Positions 20,034 through 59,440 of a DNA stretch of 64,000 nucleotides are shown here, in pieces. Both the position numbers and the translations under genes were made by a program. Below the pieces are notes generated by a model. The model was not told the DNA's origin, made no database searches, and worked only from the letters and a program-made list of their open reading frames with translations. The number at the start of each line of letters is the position of its first letter. The stretch's first letter is position 1. Location: NCBI GenBank assembly GCA_001296005.1, contig LJHR01000005.1, forward strand, positions 186,001 to 250,000, given 5' to 3'. The stretch comes from an alpha proteobacterium AAP38. Lineage in GTDB: Bacteria; Pseudomonadota; Alphaproteobacteria; Azospirillales; Azospirillaceae.

Positions 20034-20051
20034 TGTCAACCTGAATTGACA
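20034..20051. promoter_or_regulatory. PpsR/CrtJ box upstream of bchG
   Basis: TGTCAACCTGAATTGACA fits TGT-N12-ACA exactly. A second half-site TTGACA lies at 20062-20067. Read leftward, the box ends in TTGACA, a consensus -35, but the -10 region 16-18 bp on is poor. The spacing to the bchG start is short, so repression by promoter occlusion is expected. Confidence 0.75.
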
Positions 20052-20153: not shown

Positions 20154-21593
20154 TCAGTTGGAAGGGCGGTAATCTTCCAGACCGTGCCGGCGCAGCTTGA
20201 TATAGAGGCTCTGACGTGACAGGCCCAACATCTCCGCCGCTGATGCGCGGTTATTGTTGGTCTGGTCCAGCGCCGCCTCAATACAGATTTTCTCAATCAC
20301 TTCCAGCGACTCGCGCACCAGATCCTTCAGCGGAACGCGCCCGACAAGGTTGGCAAAGCCATCGGCCTGTTCCGGCGCGCCGGGGGCGGGTATGGACAGC
20401 CGTTCCGTCGTGACGACCGGTTGCGGAACAAAAATCACCTGGGTCAGGCTGGTTTCCGGATTGCGCCGCGCCGAAACCAGCACCGGACGATCACCGGACA
20501 GATTGTCGGTCAGGGTCGTGGCAAAGCCCCGCACCACCTGTTCTTCGGCCAATCTGGAATAGAAAACATGCAGGTCGAGCGATGTCTTGGAGAACCAGGT
20601 TCCCAGATTGCGTCCAACGACCTGTGCGATGGACGGTGCCTGCGCCAGATCCAGAAATAGGGTGTTGGCACCCACGATCTGGCCCTGATCATTGGTCTGG
20701 ACTGCGGGTTCCGGCACATCGGTAAGATCGACCGGCCGCTCGTTCCGCTTTTCCACCTGCTGACGCCGGGCTTCCTGCGCGTCGCTACTCTGCCAGGCAG
20801 AGATGATGAGATTGGTGATGCCGTTCTCGCGGTAAGAACGCAGGGAGAGCGATACAGGTTCGCCCTTGACCGTTTTCAGCGTATCCAGCCGGACGGGACT
20901 GGCGCTGTGGCGCGCCTCGCCGATGGCATCGCTCAACGCGTCGCGATCCTGTTTGCGGAACAGGTCGCGGAACGGCTTGCCGACGATACCGGTCGAACCG
21001 CCGCCGACCAGACTCATGGCTGCGGCATTGGCGTCCAGCACCGTCTTACGCTCACCATCCAGCATGACGTGCGCGATGGTTGAGACGCGGAAGGCGGTGC
21101 GGTACCGGGCCTCCGCCTCCTGCAGCTCGCGGTAATCAGCCTCCAACTCCATCTGGGTTTCTACCAGACGCTGCTGATCCTTCATCTGCTGGCGCAATTC
21201 ACGACCAACCACCAGCATGTAGGGGGAATCGGCCACGGAAAAACCCGAATAGAGTACGGGCAGGTCCGGCTTGCCATCACAGCTATGGTTTACCTGGTAG
21301 CCACGGGCCTGCCGCGCGCTGTCCTGACCGGTCAGCATGGCGTCGATCTTGGGCACGGATTCCACAGTCACCAGATCCTGAAGCCGCTTGCCGACCGCCT
21401 TGGTCAGGCCATAGCTGCCCATATCAGGATCTGCAAAATGAATACGATGGACGGTATGATCCTGACCGACCAGCATGACGATATCGGCGCCCAGTCCAAC
21501 AAGAGCCAAAATAGAATCGGCATCCAGCGATTTCAGCAGGCTGAGGGCAACTTCGGTGCCGTGCATCGCGTTCTTACCGTTGAGCGTCTTCAT
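20154..21593 (-). CDS. ppsR: Redox-responsive repressor PpsR/CrtJ
   Basis: 479 residues. An N-terminal domain is followed by PAS domains (about residues 145-260 and 285-390) with a coiled-coil Q-linker between, and a FIS-type helix-turn-helix lies at the C-terminus (about 445-475). The redox cysteine preceding the HTH is Cys437 in EKICIEAALDQTNNNRA, the counterpart of the CrtJ regulatory cysteine. It binds TGT-N12-ACA and represses bch, crt and puf genes aerobically. The ATG at 21593 is chosen because it overlaps the aerR stop (ATGA) and the only upstream in-frame start is a TTG. The aerR-ppsR pair is the classical order. Confidence 0.95.
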   Translation of the reverse strand: MKTLNGKNAMHGTEVALSLLKSLDADSILALVGLGADIVMLVGQDHTVHRIHFADPDMGSYGLTKAVGKRLQDLVTVESVPKIDAMLTGQDSARQARGYQVNHSCDGKPDLPVLYSGFSVADSPYMLVVGRELRQQMKDQQRLVETQMELEADYRELQEAEARYRTAFRVSTIAHVMLDGERKTVLDANAAAMSLVGGGSTGIVGKPFRDLFRKQDRDALSDAIGEARHSASPVRLDTLKTVKGEPVSLSLRSYRENGITNLIISAWQSSDAQEARRQQVEKRNERPVDLTDVPEPAVQTNDQGQIVGANTLFLDLAQAPSIAQVVGRNLGTWFSKTSLDLHVFYSRLAEEQVVRGFATTLTDNLSGDRPVLVSARRNPETSLTQVIFVPQPVVTTERLSIPAPGAPEQADGFANLVGRVPLKDLVRESLEVIEKICIEAALDQTNNNRASAAEMLGLSRQSLYIKLRRHGLEDYRPSN

Positions 21594-22540
21594 CTCAGAA
21601 GCCAATCAGGTCGTCTGTCATTGACAAGGACCCTTTGGCCAGATGCTTGTGCCTGATGGCCGAATGCTTCCAGCTCATAAAATTTCTCACATATCTTTGA
21701 CGCGGAGTAAACACTGTCACAGATGCAGTCAATCCCCAAACCCACAAGAAAATCAACAAACTCTAATGCAGCGACCCCGCCTGCGACAATCGGTGTCCGC
21801 GCACCGGGCGACACAGCTCGCACCGCGACCACAATATCCTCGAATTCCTTCTTGAGCCGGTGGTTGCTCCACCCGATGCAGACGATGTCCGCCCGCTTCA
21901 GGGTGGAGCGCAGGTTCGCCCCCTGCGGATCGTTCCCTTCAAGGATCTGGTTGGACCAGCCCATGGCATCGAATAGCAGCCCTAGAATGTGGGAGCCCAA
22001 TGTGTGCTGCTCGCCGAACGGAGTGACCAGCGCGACAAACGGCACCCAACTGCGTGGCTGCCGGCCACGGAACTCGAAGGAGAGCAGTCGGATAATCTCC
22101 TGAAGCCGGGCGGTGCCGATGGTTACATCGATGAAGTCGCAATCGTCATCGACCCATCTGCGGCCAAGAAGGCGGGCCACCGCCTCGATGAATAGGACCG
22201 AGACGATATCCGGCTGGTCGTGGGGGATTTCGCGCCGCATGAACTCGCGCAGGGCCGACGCGCGCACCCCCGGTCGGACCACCTGGGCGCAGAAATCCGA
22301 CAGAGCCGCGTCGTAACGACGGTCATGCTCAAGTCCGATGTCATAGCGCGCTGCCAGCTTTCCGGCGGTCATTGGCGCCACGGTCCTTTGGATAATGCGG
22401 CGGAGCCCGTCCCGTTCGCTTGACGCTAGGTACCCTGGTTGGCCTTGGGGGGCAAGCGATACCCCTCCCATCGGCCCCTCGGCCCGCAGGGCCGAGCGCT
22501 CTTGGTAATGATGGTCGGTGTCTGCGAATATTCTGCCCAT
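21590..22540 (-). CDS. aerR: B12-binding PpsR antirepressor AerR/PpaA
   Basis: 316 residues from the ATG at 22540; the frame stays open to 22669 but the upper part has only a TTG start. An N-terminal helical domain is followed by a cobalamin-binding Rossmann fold. EQHTLG contains His179, corresponding to the B12-coordinating His of AerR, which lacks the classical DxHxxG motif. In Rhodobacter, AerR with light-exposed B12 counteracts CrtJ/PpsR. It overlaps ppsR by ATGA, and its promoter region is shared with divergent bchF and contains PpsR boxes, suggesting feedback control. Confidence 0.92.
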   Translation of the reverse strand: MGRIFADTDHHYQERSALRAEGPMGGVSLAPQGQPGYLASSERDGLRRIIQRTVAPMTAGKLAARYDIGLEHDRRYDAALSDFCAQVVRPGVRASALREFMRREIPHDQPDIVSVLFIEAVARLLGRRWVDDDCDFIDVTIGTARLQEIIRLLSFEFRGRQPRSWVPFVALVTPFGEQHTLGSHILGLLFDAMGWSNQILEGNDPQGANLRSTLKRADIVCIGWSNHRLKKEFEDIVVAVRAVSPGARTPIVAGGVAALEFVDFLVGLGIDCICDSVYSASKICEKFYELEAFGHQAQASGQRVLVNDRRPDWLLR

Positions 22541-22659
22541 TTGTCCGCCGCGAGAACGCCCCCCTATCAACCCAGAGCCTGCGCGGCGCAAGGTGCGGGT
22601 GTGGTTCAGGGGACCAGCACACTGGCGAGCGTCCTCAGAATGGCCGGCTTGCCCGACGA

Positions 22660-22693
22660 TGTAAATCAAAATTTACGTCAACTTAGATTGACA
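22660..22693. promoter_or_regulatory. Two overlapping PpsR/CrtJ boxes between aerR and bchF
   Basis: TGTAAATCAAAATTTACG (22660-22677) and CGTCAACTTAGATTGACA (22676-22693) each differ from TGT-N12-ACA by one base and overlap by two bases. TAGATT inside the second box sits where the -10 lies in the bchC and crtD boxes and could serve bchF, but no good -35 is found upstream of it. They lie 74 nt before bchF and 120 nt before aerR. Confidence 0.65.
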
Positions 22694-46109: not shown

Positions 46110-47120
46110 TCAGACCCGGTCGTAGATGACTTCGAGCGAGGCGCGTTTCAGCGCACCCGCGGGGCACATATCTTCCGGCGTTGCCGGCTCCAGCTGGAAA
46201 TTGCCACCCGTCTGGCTGGCATCGAACAGGCCCAGCAGGCCGTCCTGATCCAGTGGGCGTGGCAGCACCGGCGGGGCTTCCGCCAGATTGATGGACAGCG
46301 CCTCAAACAGCGGACCCCAGCGGTTATCGGGCGTGCCGATGATCTGGTAGTTGGCGCTTTTGCGGCGGATATCCTCATCTTGCGGGATGGAGGCCAGGAC
46401 CGGGATGCCGACGGCGTCCGCAAAGGCCTGTGCCTCACCGGTGCCGTCATCCTTGTTAATGACCAGACCGGCCACGCCGACATTTCCGCCCAGATTGCGG
46501 AAATACTTCACCGCCGAGCAGACATTGTTGGCCACATACAGCGATTGCAGATCGTTGGAACCGACAACCACCACCTTCTGGCACATGTCGCGGGCAATCG
46601 GCAGGCCGAAGCCGCCGCAGACTACATCACCCAGGAAATCCAGCAGGACAAAGTCGAAGTCCCATTCATGGAACCCCAGCTTCTCCAACGTCTCAAACCC
46701 ATGGATGATGCCGCGACCGCCGCAGCCACGGCCAACTTCCGGCCCGCCCAGTTCCATGGCGAACACGCCATCGCGCTTGAAGCACACGTCGGAGATGGAC
46801 ACTTCCTGGCCCGCATCCTTGCGGCGCGAGGCCGTCTGAATGATGGTGGGGCAGGCACGGCCACCGAACAGCAGCGATGTCGTATCGCTTTTCGGGTCGC
46901 ACCCGATCAGCAGCACCTTCTTGCCCAACTGTGCCAGCATGTAGGACAGGTTGGCGAGCGTGAAGCTCTTGCCGATGCCGCCCTTGCCATAGATGGCAAT
47001 AATCTGGGTTTCCTTGGTTACCTTGCCGACATGCGGCGCATCGGGTTCGATGGCCGCCTCTTCACGCAGGCGCCTGCTCATAGTTTTCGGGCTGCTGCGG
47101 ACGTCCAGATCAAGACTCAT
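46110..47120 (-). CDS. bchX: Chlorophyllide a reductase iron protein BchX
   Basis: 336 residues, NifH-like ATPase. Walker [11 protein letters not shown] lies at about residues 44-53, and the two cluster cysteines fall in RGCGGRGII and VVCGGFGL. The C-terminal extension (CPAGALKRASLEVIYDRV) is specific to BchX versus BchL. Electron donor to BchYZ. It overlaps the bchC stop by ATGA. Confidence 0.95.
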   Translation of the reverse strand: MSLDLDVRSSPKTMSRRLREEAAIEPDAPHVGKVTKETQIIAIYGKGGIGKSFTLANLSYMLAQLGKKVLLIGCDPKSDTTSLLFGGRACPTIIQTASRRKDAGQEVSISDVCFKRDGVFAMELGGPEVGRGCGGRGIIHGFETLEKLGFHEWDFDFVLLDFLGDVVCGGFGLPIARDMCQKVVVVGSNDLQSLYVANNVCSAVKYFRNLGGNVGVAGLVINKDDGTGEAQAFADAVGIPVLASIPQDEDIRRKSANYQIIGTPDNRWGPLFEALSINLAEAPPVLPRPLDQDGLLGLFDASQTGGNFQLEPATPEDMCPAGALKRASLEVIYDRV

Positions 47121-48055
47121 GCGGCTTTCCTCCAGTCGATCACCATTTTCAGGCAGCCGAGGTCGTTGAACGCGGTTGAGTAGGCGGATGACGCCTGGGC
47201 CGGTGCGGCCCGGTGCGTCAGCAACCCGTCGAGGGACAGGCGCCCGGTTTCCACCAGCGCGATGACGGCGGAAACATCCTCCGGGCGGAATTCCGCCGCG
47301 ATGGACAGAGTCAGTTCCCGCATGAAGGCCGGCGCGAAGGCATAGCCAACGCGTTCTCCGTAGAAACCGGCCAGAACCAGCTCCGCCGGCTTGCGCAGGC
47401 GTGTGATGATCCCGTCGATGGCGGCGGCATCGCCGCTGGCATCAATGGCGGTGCCGTATCGGGCATCGCCGTCATCGCCGGGATCGGTCACTGTGTAACC
47501 GGTGGCACCGGGACGGCGCACAGGCGCCTTTTCCCAGACAGTCGGTGCCGCAAAACCAAGGGCCATCACAATGCGGGCGATCAACCGCCCCAGCACGCCA
47601 TGGCCGACAACCAGATCAACCGGCCCCCGTGCCCGCATCACCGCGTGGTGCGCGGTTGCCGCCAGGGCCAGCAGCACCCCATTCTCTTCCAGGGCCGGGC
47701 CAACCCTGAATACCCGTGCACCCGACACGATCAGTTGCGATGCATTGGCCCCAAACAGGCCCGCCGCATCGGCATAGCAACTGGCACCCGGTACAAACAC
47801 CATCTCGCCAACCTGATGCCCGGACAAAGGTCCGGCCTGAACCACGCGGCCGACGGTCTCGTACCCAGGGACCAAGGGATAGGCCATGCCGGGAAAACGC
47901 GGCATGGTCCCCTGGAAAAGCATCTTCTCCGTTCCTGTGGAAACGCCGCTGGCAACCGTCTCGACCACGACATCGGCGGGGCCGGGAACGTGGAGATCCA
48001 GCCGCCGAACGGCAACTTCTCCCGGTTTCTCGAACACGATGGCCGACGCGTACAT
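47117..48055 (-). CDS. bchC: Bacteriochlorophyllide a dehydrogenase BchC
   Basis: 312 residues from the ATG at 48055 (GGGGAGGCGACAAG upstream). The zinc-independent medium-chain dehydrogenase fold is shown by PLVPGYETVGRV and a nucleotide-binding VVGHGVLGRL segment. It oxidises the 3-hydroxyethyl group to acetyl, the last ring modification of bacteriochlorophyll a. First gene after the paired PpsR-box promoter; transcripts from crtE-crtF can also read in. Confidence 0.94.
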   Translation of the reverse strand: MYASAIVFEKPGEVAVRRLDLHVPGPADVVVETVASGVSTGTEKMLFQGTMPRFPGMAYPLVPGYETVGRVVQAGPLSGHQVGEMVFVPGASCYADAAGLFGANASQLIVSGARVFRVGPALEENGVLLALAATAHHAVMRARGPVDLVVGHGVLGRLIARIVMALGFAAPTVWEKAPVRRPGATGYTVTDPGDDGDARYGTAIDASGDAAAIDGIITRLRKPAELVLAGFYGERVGYAFAPAFMRELTLSIAAEFRPEDVSAVIALVETGRLSLDGLLTHRAAPAQASSAYSTAFNDLGCLKMVIDWRKAA

Positions 48056-48094
48056 CTTGTCGCCTCCCCAAGGCATAGCTTCTGATTACGCAAG

Positions 48095-48138
48095 TGTCAT
48101 ATTAAGTTGACACATATAACTGTCAATCAATATTTACA
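48095..48138 (-). promoter_or_regulatory. bchC promoter with paired PpsR/CrtJ boxes
   Basis: On the minus strand the distal box TGTAAATATTGATTGACA and the proximal box TGTCAACTTAATATGACA are both exact TGT-N12-ACA and are separated by 8 bp. The distal box ends in TTGACA (-35) and the proximal box contains TAATAT (-10), with a 16-bp spacer. Binding by PpsR would cover both elements. Cooperative binding to boxes 8 bp apart is established for CrtJ at the Rhodobacter capsulatus bchC promoter. Confidence 0.88.
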
Positions 48139-48164
48139 CTTTTTAACCGTCTGGCCCCGCCTTG

Positions 48165-49328
48165 CTATCGGCGGGCGGTGACCATAGTGGCGATCAGCGG
48201 GTTCGACGTGGTCACCGTGCGAACCGCCTGAAAGCCGGCGGATGACAGAAAGCCGGCGATTTCCTGCGCGCTACGGCAGCGCCCGGACCCCATGGCCAGG
48301 AAATAGAAGCCGAAATAGGCGGCGCTGAGCCGCGCGCCTTCCGACTTTCCATCCATGGCTTCGGCGATGATCAGCGTTGTTCCGGGGCGCAACGACCGGT
48401 GGAGATTGGCGAGAATGGCTGCCACCCGCGAATCATCATGGTCGCAGAGAATCCGGACCAGAGTGACGCAATCGGCATCATCGGGCAGCGGATCGCGAAC
48501 GAAATCCCCGCCATGAACTTGTGTGCGCGCGCCCAACCCCAGTGATTCCAGATGGTGGACGGCACGGTCGGCGACGGCGGGAAGGTCGAACAGCCGCAGT
48601 TCCAGGCTGGCATGGCGGTCGGCTGCGGCGGCCAGGAACGCGCCGTCGCCGCCCCCGACATCCAGAAGGATGTGCGTCTGTCCGAAATCATAGGCTGCCA
48701 GGATACAGTCGGCCATCATGGCCTGGCTTTCCCGCATCAGCAGGGAATAGCCATCGACCTCTGCGGCCTGTGGCCCCCCGGTCCCCATATCCCGGACATA
48801 AGCCCAATATTGGCGCAGTTCCGTCTGTGCGCCGGCAGTGCGCAGCAGATGGTCCGGTTCGGTCAGGTCGCGATACAGCATGGCATGGTGCAGCACCATG
48901 GCACCGAGTCCCCGGTCACTGGCCAGCACGGCCCCGGCATCATCCAGTACCCAGAGGTCGGGTGCAGGTTCAAGCAGAAGGCCCAAGGAAACGCTGGCCC
49001 GCAGCAGCACGCGCAGGCGCCCCTCCGGGATGCCCAGACGCGCGGCCAATGCCCCGGTTGTCGCCGGCGCGTCCTGCAAGGTCTCATAAAGCCCCAGCCG
49101 GACACCGGCCAGTAGCACCTGGGAGAAGATGAAGCCGCCGGTCAGGCGGAACAGGTCATTGGCCTTGCGGTTGCCGATACTGCGCAACAGCGGCAGCCGG
49201 GCAATCAGCCGGCGGAAACGGGGCGAGGCCACAAGCCGGTTGCGCCAGAGCCGCAGGCGCAGGGCAAGCGGCAGGCTGTCCGTCAGGACCGGCGGGATAA
49301 TCTGGCTTTTGGCGGACTGTGCCGACAT
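48165..49328 (-). CDS. crtF: Carotenoid O-methyltransferase CrtF
   Basis: 387 residues. A helical dimerisation domain (about 60-170) is followed by a SAM-binding Rossmann fold with LLDVGGGDGAFL, then the O-methyltransferase motifs (DADCVTLVRILCDHDD, LIIAEAMDG). It methylates the 1-hydroxyl of hydroxylated carotenoids in the spheroidene/spirilloxanthin routes. It lies 7 nt after crtE and about 110 nt upstream of bchC. Confidence 0.92.
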   Translation of the reverse strand: MSAQSAKSQIIPPVLTDSLPLALRLRLWRNRLVASPRFRRLIARLPLLRSIGNRKANDLFRLTGGFIFSQVLLAGVRLGLYETLQDAPATTGALAARLGIPEGRLRVLLRASVSLGLLLEPAPDLWVLDDAGAVLASDRGLGAMVLHHAMLYRDLTEPDHLLRTAGAQTELRQYWAYVRDMGTGGPQAAEVDGYSLLMRESQAMMADCILAAYDFGQTHILLDVGGGDGAFLAAAADRHASLELRLFDLPAVADRAVHHLESLGLGARTQVHGGDFVRDPLPDDADCVTLVRILCDHDDSRVAAILANLHRSLRPGTTLIIAEAMDGKSEGARLSAAYFGFYFLAMGSGRCRSAQEIAGFLSSAGFQAVRTVTTSNPLIATMVTARR

Positions 49329-49335
49329 GCCTGTG

Positions 49336-50205
49336 TCAAGCTGCGCTGACAGAGAGCGTCTTTGGCATCAGCCGCGTCGCCTCGTTCCGGATCATCGCGC
49401 GGAACGCATCGCGACCGGCGCAATCGGGTACACTGTCCGCAGCCGTTTCCACCAGGGTACGCAGATGTTTCAGCACTGCGGGAATGCCGAGCGAGATTGC
49501 GATGTTGGGCTTGCCATTGCGCCCATCCTGGCCGACCGGCTTGCCCATGCTGCCCGTCAGGCCGATGGCATCATAAAGATCATCCGCCACCTGATAGGCA
49601 GAACCCAGGGCATCGGCCAAAGTCAGCCAGTCCTGCGGGCTGCCGCCGGATGCCAAGGCGCCGGCAGAAACCGCGCCCGCGAACAGCGACGCCGTCTTGG
49701 CGCGATGATACTGGGTGATGTCGATCTCCGGCTCACTCTCCCACGCCTGGCCGGCGACAAGCCCATAGGGTGACCCCACGGCCTTGGCGATGGTGGCAAT
49801 CAATGGTGCCGTCAGGCGGGGATTGTGCAGGGTTTCCCGCGCCACCGTCTCAAACGCCGCCACGATCAGGCCGTCACCCACCAGAAGGGCAATATCCTCC
49901 CCGAACTCCGTATGCACGGATGTCTGTCCCCGGCGGGTGGCGGCGTTGTCGAAGCAGGGCATGTCGTCATGCACCAGGGAGGCGCAGTGCAGCAACTCAA
50001 TCCCCACAGCCGCCGCGTTGGCGGCCTGCGGGTCCCGGTCACCGCAGGCCGTCGCCACCGCCAGACACAGACGGGGCCGGATGCGTGCGCCGCCGGGGAA
50101 AACCGCGTGACGCAGCCCCTTGGCCAGAAGTGGAGGGCAGCCATTGGCCGTTGACAGCCGCAGGGCGAGCTGCAGTCCGGTTTCGATGCGCTCGGGCAAA
50201 TCCAT
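49336..50205 (-). CDS. crtE: Geranylgeranyl diphosphate synthase CrtE
   Basis: 289 residues, trans-prenyltransferase. First Asp-rich motif DDMPCFDN (from Asp80), second DDLYD (208-212). It makes the C20 precursor for carotenoids and the bacteriochlorophyll tail. ATG 50205 with AGGAGACGGCCCC is chosen over an upstream GTG at 50223. First gene of the crtEF-bchCXYZ-puf superoperon; divergent from crtD across a shared PpsR-box pair. Confidence 0.94.
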   Translation of the reverse strand: MDLPERIETGLQLALRLSTANGCPPLLAKGLRHAVFPGGARIRPRLCLAVATACGDRDPQAANAAAVGIELLHCASLVHDDMPCFDNAATRRGQTSVHTEFGEDIALLVGDGLIVAAFETVARETLHNPRLTAPLIATIAKAVGSPYGLVAGQAWESEPEIDITQYHRAKTASLFAGAVSAGALASGGSPQDWLTLADALGSAYQVADDLYDAIGLTGSMGKPVGQDGRNGKPNIAISLGIPAVLKHLRTLVETAADSVPDCAGRDAFRAMIRNEATRLMPKTLSVSAA

Positions 50206-50228
50206 GGGGCCGTCTCCTTGCACTTATT

Positions 50229-50272
50229 TGTCAATTTCATTTGACGATAAAAAGTGTAAATCTAAATTGACA
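50229..50272. promoter_or_regulatory. Divergent crtE/crtD promoter with paired PpsR/CrtJ boxes
   Basis: TGTCAATTTCATTTGACG (one mismatch to TGT-N12-ACA) and TGTAAATCTAAATTGACA (exact) are 8 bp apart. For crtD, TTGACG at the end of the first box and TAAATT inside the second form -35/-10 elements with a 16-bp spacer, the same geometry as at bchC. For crtE on the other strand TTTACA and GAAATT occupy the equivalent places. Confidence 0.8.
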
Positions 50273-50307
50273 CACCTTAAGCGAATGTCAATCCGCGAGG
50301 GACGGGC

Positions 50308-51885
50308 GTGAGCGGCGGAACTGAAAATGACGTGGTGATTGTTGGTGCCGGGATGGGCGGCCTGTCGGCTGCCCTGGTTCTGGCCAGTGCCGGTTTCAGG
50401 GTTGTGGTGGTTGATGGCGCGGCGGGGCCGGGCGGAAAACTGCGGCAGGTCGCGGCTGGCCGGCAGTCATTCGATGCCGGGCCGACCGTTCTGACCATGA
50501 AGTGGGTGTTCGATGCGCTTCTTTCCCGATGCGGCACGGCGTTGGAGTCGGAGGTTGGATTGGTCCGCTCCGACCTGCTGGCCCGGCATTACTGGCGGGG
50601 CGGTGAAGGGTTGGACCTGTTCGCGGATCTGGACCGCAATGCCGATGCCATCGGCGATTTCGCGGGCGCGCGAGAGGCTGCTGGCTTCCGACGCTTTGCC
50701 AATGACAGTGCCCGCATCTATCGATTGCTGGAACGCAGCTTCATTGATGCGCCCCGGCCCAATCCCTTATCGCTATCGGCCCGTATCGGGCTGCACCGGC
50801 CAGGGTCGTTGCTGGCGCTGAAGCCGTACAGCACGCTGTGGTCGGCGCTGTCGGACTATTTTGCCGATCCGCGTCTGCGGCAATTGTTCGGGCGCTATGC
50901 CACCTATTGCGGTTCGTCGCCGTTCCTGGCACCGGCCACACTGATGCTGGTGGCGCATGTGGAACAGGATGGCGTGTGGATCGTTGAGGGCGGCATGCAT
51001 CTTCTGGCCCGGCGCCTGATGGCGGTGGCGGAGCGTCTGGGGGTCGTGTTCCGGTTCGCAGAGAATGTCGTGTCCATCGATAAGGACCGTTCGGGCCGTG
51101 CCGTTACGGGTGTCACGACCGACCAGCAGCGGCAGATCGGGGCGGCATCGGTGATCTTCAATGGTGATGCAGCGGCCCTTGCCCCGCTGCTGGAGCCGGG
51201 CGAACTGCCACGCCGGCGGATGGGGCAGCGGTCTTTGTCGGCGCTGGTGGCCTGCGGTTCGGCCATCCCGTCGGGCGTACCGCTGGCCCATCACACAGTT
51301 TTCTTTTCCGACGATTACAAGGCGGAATTCGACGCCATCCTGCATCAGCGACGCCCACCGGCGGACCCCACCATTTATGTCTGTGCCCAGGACCGCACCG
51401 ATGCCGGCGCCTTGCGTGGGACGGTGGCGGGGGGCGGGGAACGGCTTTACAGCCTGATCAACATGCCGGCGGACGGCGATGGCCATGCCTATACGGAAAG
51501 CGAGATCGACCGATGTCTGTCTTCGATGGAACGTCGTCTGGCCCGCAACGGGCTGACCCTGCCGTTCGACAGGCGGGTGATGTCGATCACGGCACCGGAC
51601 GGGTTCAACCGTCTGTTTCCGGGTACGGGCGGCGCGCTGTACGGGATGGCATCGCATGGCGCCATGGCGTCCTTCCGACGGCCATCGTCGCAGGGCCCGA
51701 TCACGGGCCTGTATCTGGCGGGGGGCAGCGTGCATCCGGGACCAGGGGTGCCGATGGCGGCCCTGTCGGGCAAGATCGCCGCCGAACGGTTACTGGCGGA
51801 CCGGGCTTTGATCGACCGGTCCCGCCCGGTGGCTATCACTGGTGGTATGCCGATGCGGTCAGTGATTGCGGACACTACGCCCTGA
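50308..51885 (+). CDS. crtD: Hydroxycarotenoid 3,4-desaturase CrtD
   Basis: 525 residues, GTG start after GAGGGACGGGC. N-terminal FAD motif VGAGMGGLSAA (about 12-22) and C-terminal YLAGGSVHPGPGVPMAALSGK characterise the CrtI/CrtD desaturase family; the sequence is of the CrtD branch (GPTVLTMKWVFDALL). It introduces the 3,4 double bond in hydroxylated carotenoids. The C-terminal ~25 residues run past the usual family end and overlap the N-terminal coding part of crtC in another frame. Confidence 0.92.
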   Translation: MSGGTENDVVIVGAGMGGLSAALVLASAGFRVVVVDGAAGPGGKLRQVAAGRQSFDAGPTVLTMKWVFDALLSRCGTALESEVGLVRSDLLARHYWRGGEGLDLFADLDRNADAIGDFAGAREAAGFRRFANDSARIYRLLERSFIDAPRPNPLSLSARIGLHRPGSLLALKPYSTLWSALSDYFADPRLRQLFGRYATYCGSSPFLAPATLMLVAHVEQDGVWIVEGGMHLLARRLMAVAERLGVVFRFAENVVSIDKDRSGRAVTGVTTDQQRQIGAASVIFNGDAAALAPLLEPGELPRRRMGQRSLSALVACGSAIPSGVPLAHHTVFFSDDYKAEFDAILHQRRPPADPTIYVCAQDRTDAGALRGTVAGGGERLYSLINMPADGDGHAYTESEIDRCLSSMERRLARNGLTLPFDRRVMSITAPDGFNRLFPGTGGALYGMASHGAMASFRRPSSQGPITGLYLAGGSVHPGPGVPMAALSGKIAAERLLADRALIDRSRPVAITGGMPMRSVIADTTP

Positions 51886-59422: not shown

Positions 59423-59440
59423 TGTCAATCAACATTGACA
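59423..59440. promoter_or_regulatory. PpsR/CrtJ box upstream of bchI
   Basis: TGTCAATCAACATTGACA fits TGT-N12-ACA exactly, 22 bp before the bchI ATG. A separate half-site TTGACA lies at 59468-59473. No good -10 is seen between the box and the start codon, so the promoter may lie to the right of the box with repression near or downstream of its start. Confidence 0.72.

Follow-up and report, generated by a model that had tools for sequence, protein, structure and literature searches.

In this study, we found that the upstream regions of bchC and crtD in an alphaproteobacterial photosynthesis gene cluster very probably carry sigma-70 promoters under PpsR repression, with the core promoter formed by the two operator palindromes themselves. 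The cluster includes the analysed window, a stretch of 64,000 nucleotides, and the genome has a size of 5.78 Mb. The architecture is of a known kind and was correctly observed in the initial annotation of this DNA, whose functional guess was good. bchC is a studied case met again, strikingly conserved, and what is new here is the strength of that conservation. Across photosynthesis clusters of alpha-, beta- and gammaproteobacteria, the spacing of the repressor sites and that of the promoter form a single constraint at bchC, in that the 8-bp gap between the boxes entails the 16-bp spacer of the promoter.

The bchC and crtD modules and their presumed repressor

The bchC coding region (47117..48076, minus strand) matches TIGR01202 with 380.8 bits against a cut-off of 291.25, and, judging from a ribosome-binding-site-like GGGGAGG, its start more likely lies near 48055. 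The crtD coding region (50308..51885, plus strand) matches NF045637 with 612.9 bits (cut-off 580). Divergent to crtD lies a crtE-like gene for a polyprenyl diphosphate synthase (49336..50205, minus strand), whose best NCBIfam match, NF045485, reaches 173.6 bits and is below the cut-off of 275; its putative start at 50205 was picked via a ribosome-binding-site-like AAGGAG. The intergenic operator is common to these two genes. The window also encodes a PpsR/CrtJ repressor: ppsR (20154..21605, minus strand) scores above the cut-off of TIGR02040 (283.3 against 275.4 bits), and its product has PAS and HTH_8 matches, with a Fis-type HTH and a cysteine directly ahead of the recognition part. This product is presumed to be the repressor of the bchC and crtD operators.

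Upstream of bchC, on the minus strand, the sequence, the box and module matrices and a sigma-70 scan identify a distal PpsR-type box (TGTAAATATTGATTGACA, 48121..48138), whose bases 13-18 are the -35 hexamer TTGACA (48121-48126). The proximal box (TGTCAACTTAATATGACA, 48095..48112), assigned from its sequence, contains the -10 hexamer TAATAT (48099-48104) at bases 9-14. On the plus strand upstream of crtD, sequence, matrices and sigma-70 scan identify both a distal box (TGTCAATTTCATTTGACG, 50229..50246) with the -35 TTGACG at bases 13-18 (50241-50246) and a proximal box (TGTAAATCTAAATTGACA, 50255..50272) with the -10 TAAATT at bases 9-14 (50263-50268). Both bchC boxes and the proximal crtD box fit TGT-N12-ACA exactly, and the distal crtD box reads TGT-N12-ACG. 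Judged by sequence only, the upper palindrome thus lies over the -35 and the lower one over the -10 at both genes. The initial annotation had described two 18-bp boxes exactly 8 bp apart at bchC and crtD, the distal one ending in the -35 and the -10 beginning at base 9 of the proximal one after a 16-bp spacer, and the sequence and positions agree with it on each of these points. The gap of 8 bp and the spacer of 16 bp are the same at both genes; the spacer follows from two 18-bp boxes and an 8-bp gap, because TTGACA is the right half-site of the distal box and TANNNT the centre of the proximal box plus T14.

In the proposed mechanism, the right half-site TTGACA of the distal box would serve as the -35, and the central TA of the proximal box together with T14 would serve as the -10. 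Cooperative binding of PpsR to the two boxes should mask the -35 and the -10 and keep RNA polymerase out, and transcription should become possible once PpsR is released or remodelled, through redox state or an AerR/PpaA-type partner. PpsR binding, repression and the start sites at bchC and crtD are predicted here by analogy with studied relatives.

The relative that resembles the modules most directly is the CrtJ/PpsR-controlled bchC promoter of R. capsulatus, which has two TGT-N12-ACA palindromes with an 8-bp gap, the upper over the -35 and the lower over the -10 (PMC5362033). The published coordinates of its boxes, which are supported by in vitro footprints and in vivo ChIP-exo, are -4 to -21 for the lower and -30 to -47 for the upper one, so that the pair spans the -10 and the -35 (PMC5362033). 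By arithmetic, bases 13-18 of the upper box correspond to -35 to -30 and bases 9-14 of the lower box to -13 to -8, which is the register found here. The initial annotation had offered the identical positions of both promoter elements as its own reading; the positions are right, but they are not new for bchC, because the box coordinates published for R. capsulatus imply them (PMC5362033). The likeness rests on these coordinates, not on the hexamer letters of the R. capsulatus promoter, which belongs to another lineage, and on our side it is drawn from sequence. The bchC-type CrtJ/PpsR class is further defined by cooperative binding, repression and a start site 4 bases past the lower box. PpsR/CrtJ palindromes are described as typically eight nucleotides apart (PMC9144470), and for R. 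capsulatus the distance is given as 8 bp at bchC, with other promoters ranging from 45 to 500 bp (PMC6199135). In R. sphaeroides, PpsR ChIP peaks are reported upstream of bchC and crtEF (PMC4344238). In Rubrivivax gelatinosus, the paired boxes have a gap of 9 bp at pucB and of 8 bp at crtI, and the region bound at pucB overlaps both promoter elements, -35 and -10; the gap matters for the redox response in this species, and box spacing alone is comparable at crtI (PMC4452267). We found no cross-genome table of the hexamer register in the open-access literature.

Counting boxes within the window proved uninformative as evidence: bare TGTN12ACA occurs 12 times against 7.5 expected, a count also attained in 5 of 100 shuffles. 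With a single-box matrix, the reversed window contains one match of 16.7 bits, near the value of the crtD distal box (17.8). The 44-bp module matrix, trained on 87 rows that include the bchC module of the window and leave out crtD, scores bchC at 53.6 and crtD at 39.9 bits, against a reversed-window maximum of -7.4. Across the 5.78-Mb genome, TTGACR-N9-GT-N5-TA-N3-TKAC occurs at two places, bchC and crtD, with 0 in the backwards control; when one mismatch is allowed, there are five places against two in the control. The sigma-70 scan of 47900-50500 returned three promoters (shuffle average 0.6), the third being the opposite strand of the bchC pair (TTGACA-16-AATATT, 10/12 matches), and the bchC promoter matches 10/12 on both strands. 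With the module matrix, the forward strand scores 53.6 against 32.6 for the reverse strand at bchC, and 39.9 against 34.7 at crtD. Because the box pair is pseudo-symmetric and the two strands match equally at bchC, one sequence does not decide the direction, and a cross-genome comparison is needed. The crtD pair sits between divergent crtE and crtD, so its position does not force its assignment to crtD. By themselves, a 16-bp spacer and -10 hexamers with four of six matches make ordinary to weak promoters.

Conservation of the bchC register across genomes

We compared 121 bchC loci, including that of the window, from three samples: 82 genomes of the order supplied 18 loci scoring above the family cut-off, 385 genomes from the class supplied 23 further loci of 27 found, and named genomes supplied the best 80 among 565 relatives, a sample that leans to typical BchC. 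Loci below the bchC cut-off (L021-L032) were excluded. Within 250 bp upstream of bchC, TTGAC[AG]-N16-TANNNT is present in 101 of the 121 loci, which include the best 80 of 565, and in 89 of 109 clusters formed at 80% DNA identity; 20 loci are free of the pattern. The reverse strand carries it at a 16-bp spacer in none of the 121 loci, and at other spacers in nine at 22 bp and in at most one elsewhere. On the forward strand, any other spacer from 8 to 25 bp accounts for at most four of the 121, and 20 rounds of dinucleotide shuffling gave a mean of 0.05 loci with the 16-bp pattern. Ninety-four of the 101 pattern-bearing loci keep all three operator marks tested.

Box scoring without the -10, which rewards TTG at bases 13-15, found a pair in 101 of the 121 loci, and 88 of those 101 have an 8-bp gap. 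In four loci (L013, L068, L071 and L113) no box upstream of bchC reached the box-score threshold. The 20 of 121 loci scored as lacking a pair, together with the odd gaps, are largely a scoring artefact. Apparent 7-bp pairs, as in L033, L038, L054, L082 and L111, are a third upstream box beside the 8-bp module. Alignment of the 88 pairs left 87 modules after omission of L092, in which the first pair is not the promoter-proximal one; the 8-bp pair of L052 consists of the upstream and the distal box, which puts one row of the 87-module alignment out of register. Among the 34 bchC loci outside the training set, 21 score at or above the lowest training value with the 44-bp, 8-bp-gap module. By a loose criterion, 14 of 101 loci have a third PpsR-like box upstream of the distal box at a distance of 6-8 bp, which is 7 bp in eight of these 14; these loci include L033, L038, L054, L070, L082, L103, L108 and L111.

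The exact pattern with fixed gap gave 48 matches in 36 of 41 bchC-bearing genomes, against one in the control. By position, 36 of them are at bchC, five at crtD of the window's lineage and seven elsewhere. The latter comprise a puc site in G171 (L213), identified by eye through an LH2-beta-like peptide; a site at a Crp/Fnr-like gene in G176 (L212), likewise identified by eye; a site about 0.4 kb upstream of pufL in G405 (L211); two sites at bchG in G228 and G457 (L210 and L214), where the match is directed away from the gene; and two apparent chance matches (L215 and L216). The initial annotation had staked its reading on conservation of the spacing in related genomes, and the spacing held when the gap was allowed to vary from 4 to 12 bp: of 44 matches, found in 33 of the same 41 genomes, 42 are at 8 bp (control, 3). 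The bchC register is widespread and strongly constrained, and this analysis establishes the bchC module in its sequence, register, conservation and direction.

Operator and promoter within the same palindromes

Provided that one protein binds both boxes, comparison of the two with each other allows operator and promoter to be told apart. In the 87 aligned bchC modules, TTGAC stands at bases 13-17 of 83 distal boxes, and TANNNT at bases 9-14 of 79 proximal boxes against 9 distal ones. Of the 87 proximal boxes, 83 have T9 and 83 have A10, against 50 and 25 of 87 distal boxes, respectively; bases 9 and 10 played no part in box selection. T13, which the scoring rewards equally in both boxes, is found in 85 of 87 distal and 3 of 87 proximal boxes. 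Since the same protein is presumed to bind both boxes, the excess of T9 and A10 in the proximal boxes is best ascribed to the promoter. Furthermore, the best promoter score places the -35 at base 13 of the distal box (D13) and the -10 at base 9 of the proximal box (P9) in 80 of 88 bchC loci, against 28 of 88 for the reverse strand in its corresponding register, with mean best scores of 11.6 forward and 7.3 reverse.

It could be argued that the hexamer matches arise as a side effect of AT-rich palindromes and carry no information on promoters, as the operator half-site TTGACA is itself the -35 consensus and the reverse strand of bchC matches equally well. The pattern is, however, specific to direction and spacing (101 of 121 forward against 0 of 121 reverse at a 16-bp spacer), and T13 is nearly confined to the distal boxes. 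We regard this explanation as highly improbable overall, and for bchC it is already contradicted. Somewhat less improbable, but still unlikely, is that the central TA and T14 of the proximal box reflect a preference of PpsR at the second, cooperatively bound site and form no -10 at all. The constraint does sit inside a palindrome and the dyad TA is symmetric, with 67 of 87 bchC proximal boxes reading TANNNT at bases 9-14 on the other strand too. Against this, the distal boxes, presumably bound by the same protein, rarely carry the hexamer, it stands at the distance from TTGACA that a sigma-70 -10 would have, and Magnetospirillum retains the TA/T hexamer although the proximal half-sites are gone. 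In M. molischianum and M. fulvum (L079 and L105, one cluster), bchC keeps TTGACA-16-TA[CG]ACT and the distal box, and the proximal box is without TGT and ACA, its half-sites reading GGG and GCG.

A promoter read through the operator palindromes is therefore the reading we prefer, operator and promoter being superimposed but separable in evolution. A comparable arrangement is reported for Dinoroseobacter shibae bchF, in the bchF-ppaA intergenic region, with one motif over the -10 and start site and another over the -35, and repression by exclusion was proposed (PMC10890935). When only the half-sites outside -10 and -35 were mutated there, derepression resulted and the promoter was still active, which shows that operator and promoter can be separated (PMC10890935). 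The gene is a different one, and by the coordinates given its mutated outer half-sites enclose 52 bp, as against 44 bp in the 8-bp-gap module (PMC10890935). The initial annotation had equated operator and sigma-70 promoter as the same sequence and expected mutation of one to alter the other. The promoter is indeed embedded in the operator in a fixed register at bchC (the 101 of 121 loci above), but the outer half-sites are separable; likewise, the mutational coupling should apply to the inner parts and not to the outer half-sites, as D. shibae bchF and Magnetospirillum bchC illustrate. Uncoupled cases such as Magnetospirillum bchC and the shifted register at crtD could tell whether the repressor, RNA polymerase or both keep the gap. 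The TA on the dyad, with its frequent reverse TANNNT, also makes weak antisense starts towards crtF possible.

The crtE-crtD intergenic region and other PpsR-type boxes

At crtD the picture differs between lineages. The survey covered 121 sources (120 loci and the window); crtD is present in 83 of them and divergent from crtE in 78 of the 83. Box pairs between crtE and crtD were found at 60 loci, 46 at 8 bp and 11 at 7 bp. The bchC-type register occurs in the window and its relatives L136-L141, where the best -10 is at B9 in six of seven; five of the seven have the strict promoter pattern, and the other two have TGGACG as -35. Of the 39 other 8-bp pairs, 20 have their best -10 at base 8, which gives a 15-bp spacer, and two have it at base 9. 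The hexamer patterns at crtD were picked after inspection of the data, and the counts based on them are exploratory. The bchC-type register at crtD is a trait of the window's lineage; the module which the initial annotation saw as shared by bchC and crtD is shared in that lineage, but outside it the base-8 register is commoner. In box A outside the lineage, T is found at base 16 in 67% of the 39 pairs (TTGTCA-like), breaking the operator consensus.

The direction of crtE has to be considered as well. A putative crtE -35, TTGACA (50286..50291, minus strand), lies in the crtD leader of the window, where other genomes carry GTCAA. In 21 of 70 other loci (crtD leaders L059-L175, from which L124 was excluded for its low box score), GTCAA follows the crtD-side box at a distance of 15 or 16 bases, and this cluster fits a crtE -35. 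A second GTCAA cluster, at +4 to +6 after the box, was seen in 10 of the 70 loci. We set aside GTCAA in the leader as a PpsR half-site, because conservation, judged by eye, seems strongest at CAA, which reads TTG on the opposite strand and so resembles a -35.

These observations raise the alternative that the crtE-crtD pair is chiefly a bidirectional or a crtE promoter, with the crtD-side box serving as -10 both ways, in which case assignment to crtD only would be wrong. The divergent gene order in 78 of 83 loci and the GTCAA positions point that way, as do the strict crtE pattern TTGACN-N17-TANNNT in 12 of 71 loci outside the lineage (shuffle mean 0.3, largest shuffle count at any spacer 2) and the best crtE scores with 16-18-bp spacers at the crtD-side box in 16 of the 39 other 8-bp pairs. 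Two -10s offset by one base would, if starts are taken 7 bases beyond each, place these starts 18 bp apart. In the window's lineage, however, the box is tuned to crtD: the best promoter score in the window is 11.1 in the crtD direction and 8.0 in the crtE direction, and the crtE -10 is poor, reading AATTTA at 17 bp in the window. Moreover, 59 of the 71 loci outside the lineage lack the strict crtE pattern at 17 bp; the strict crtD pattern at 15 bp is found in 14 of the 71. We therefore consider the bidirectional or crtE reading rather unlikely.

The data suggest that elsewhere, in part of the genomes, a -10 may be common to crtE and crtD. Tentatively, and at somewhat less than an even chance, the crtE-crtD palindrome may be built round a near-symmetric -10 (TAnnATA) firing both ways from start sites some 18 bp apart; a one-base slide of the register in the window's lineage would then favour crtD and leave the consensus crtE -35 as a relic or weak partner. 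A start distance of 18 bp is reported as the commonest spacing among bidirectional promoters of E. coli, whose symmetric -10, readable both ways, resembles the crtE-crtD box of some other genomes (PMC12825309). Unlike in those promoters, the -10 here would lie inside a PpsR-type palindrome, and the crtE hexamer of the window is poor. If this arrangement is true, one repressor complex would silence two divergent carotenoid operons, and two RNA polymerase orientations would compete for one site. The crtE-crtD box is the most interesting loose end of this analysis.

Further PpsR-type boxes were seen in the window. Two of them, overlapping by 2 bp, lie at 22660-22693 between a ppaA/aerR-like ORF (21590-22669; weak B12-binding match, E 0.025, below the cut-off) and bchF (22707). 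In the bchF-side box, TAGATT occupies bases 9-14, which is the -10 register seen at bchC and crtD, and a good -35 is absent 16 bp upstream. Another box, at the crtE-crtF junction (49334-49351), overlaps the end of the crtE reading frame and scores 18.1 bits, slightly above the 16.7 bits of the reversed window. Single strong boxes lie just upstream of bchG (20034-20051, 22.0 bits) and upstream of bchI (59423-59440, 21.6 bits), and at the bchG place of G228 and G457 there is a full 8-bp box pair. Finally, one genus contains two kinds of bchC, with 449 bits in G067 and 374-392 bits in G000, G068, G070 and G072-G075, for which exchange of photosynthesis clusters is one possible reason; G067 also shows the base-8 register at crtD (L147).
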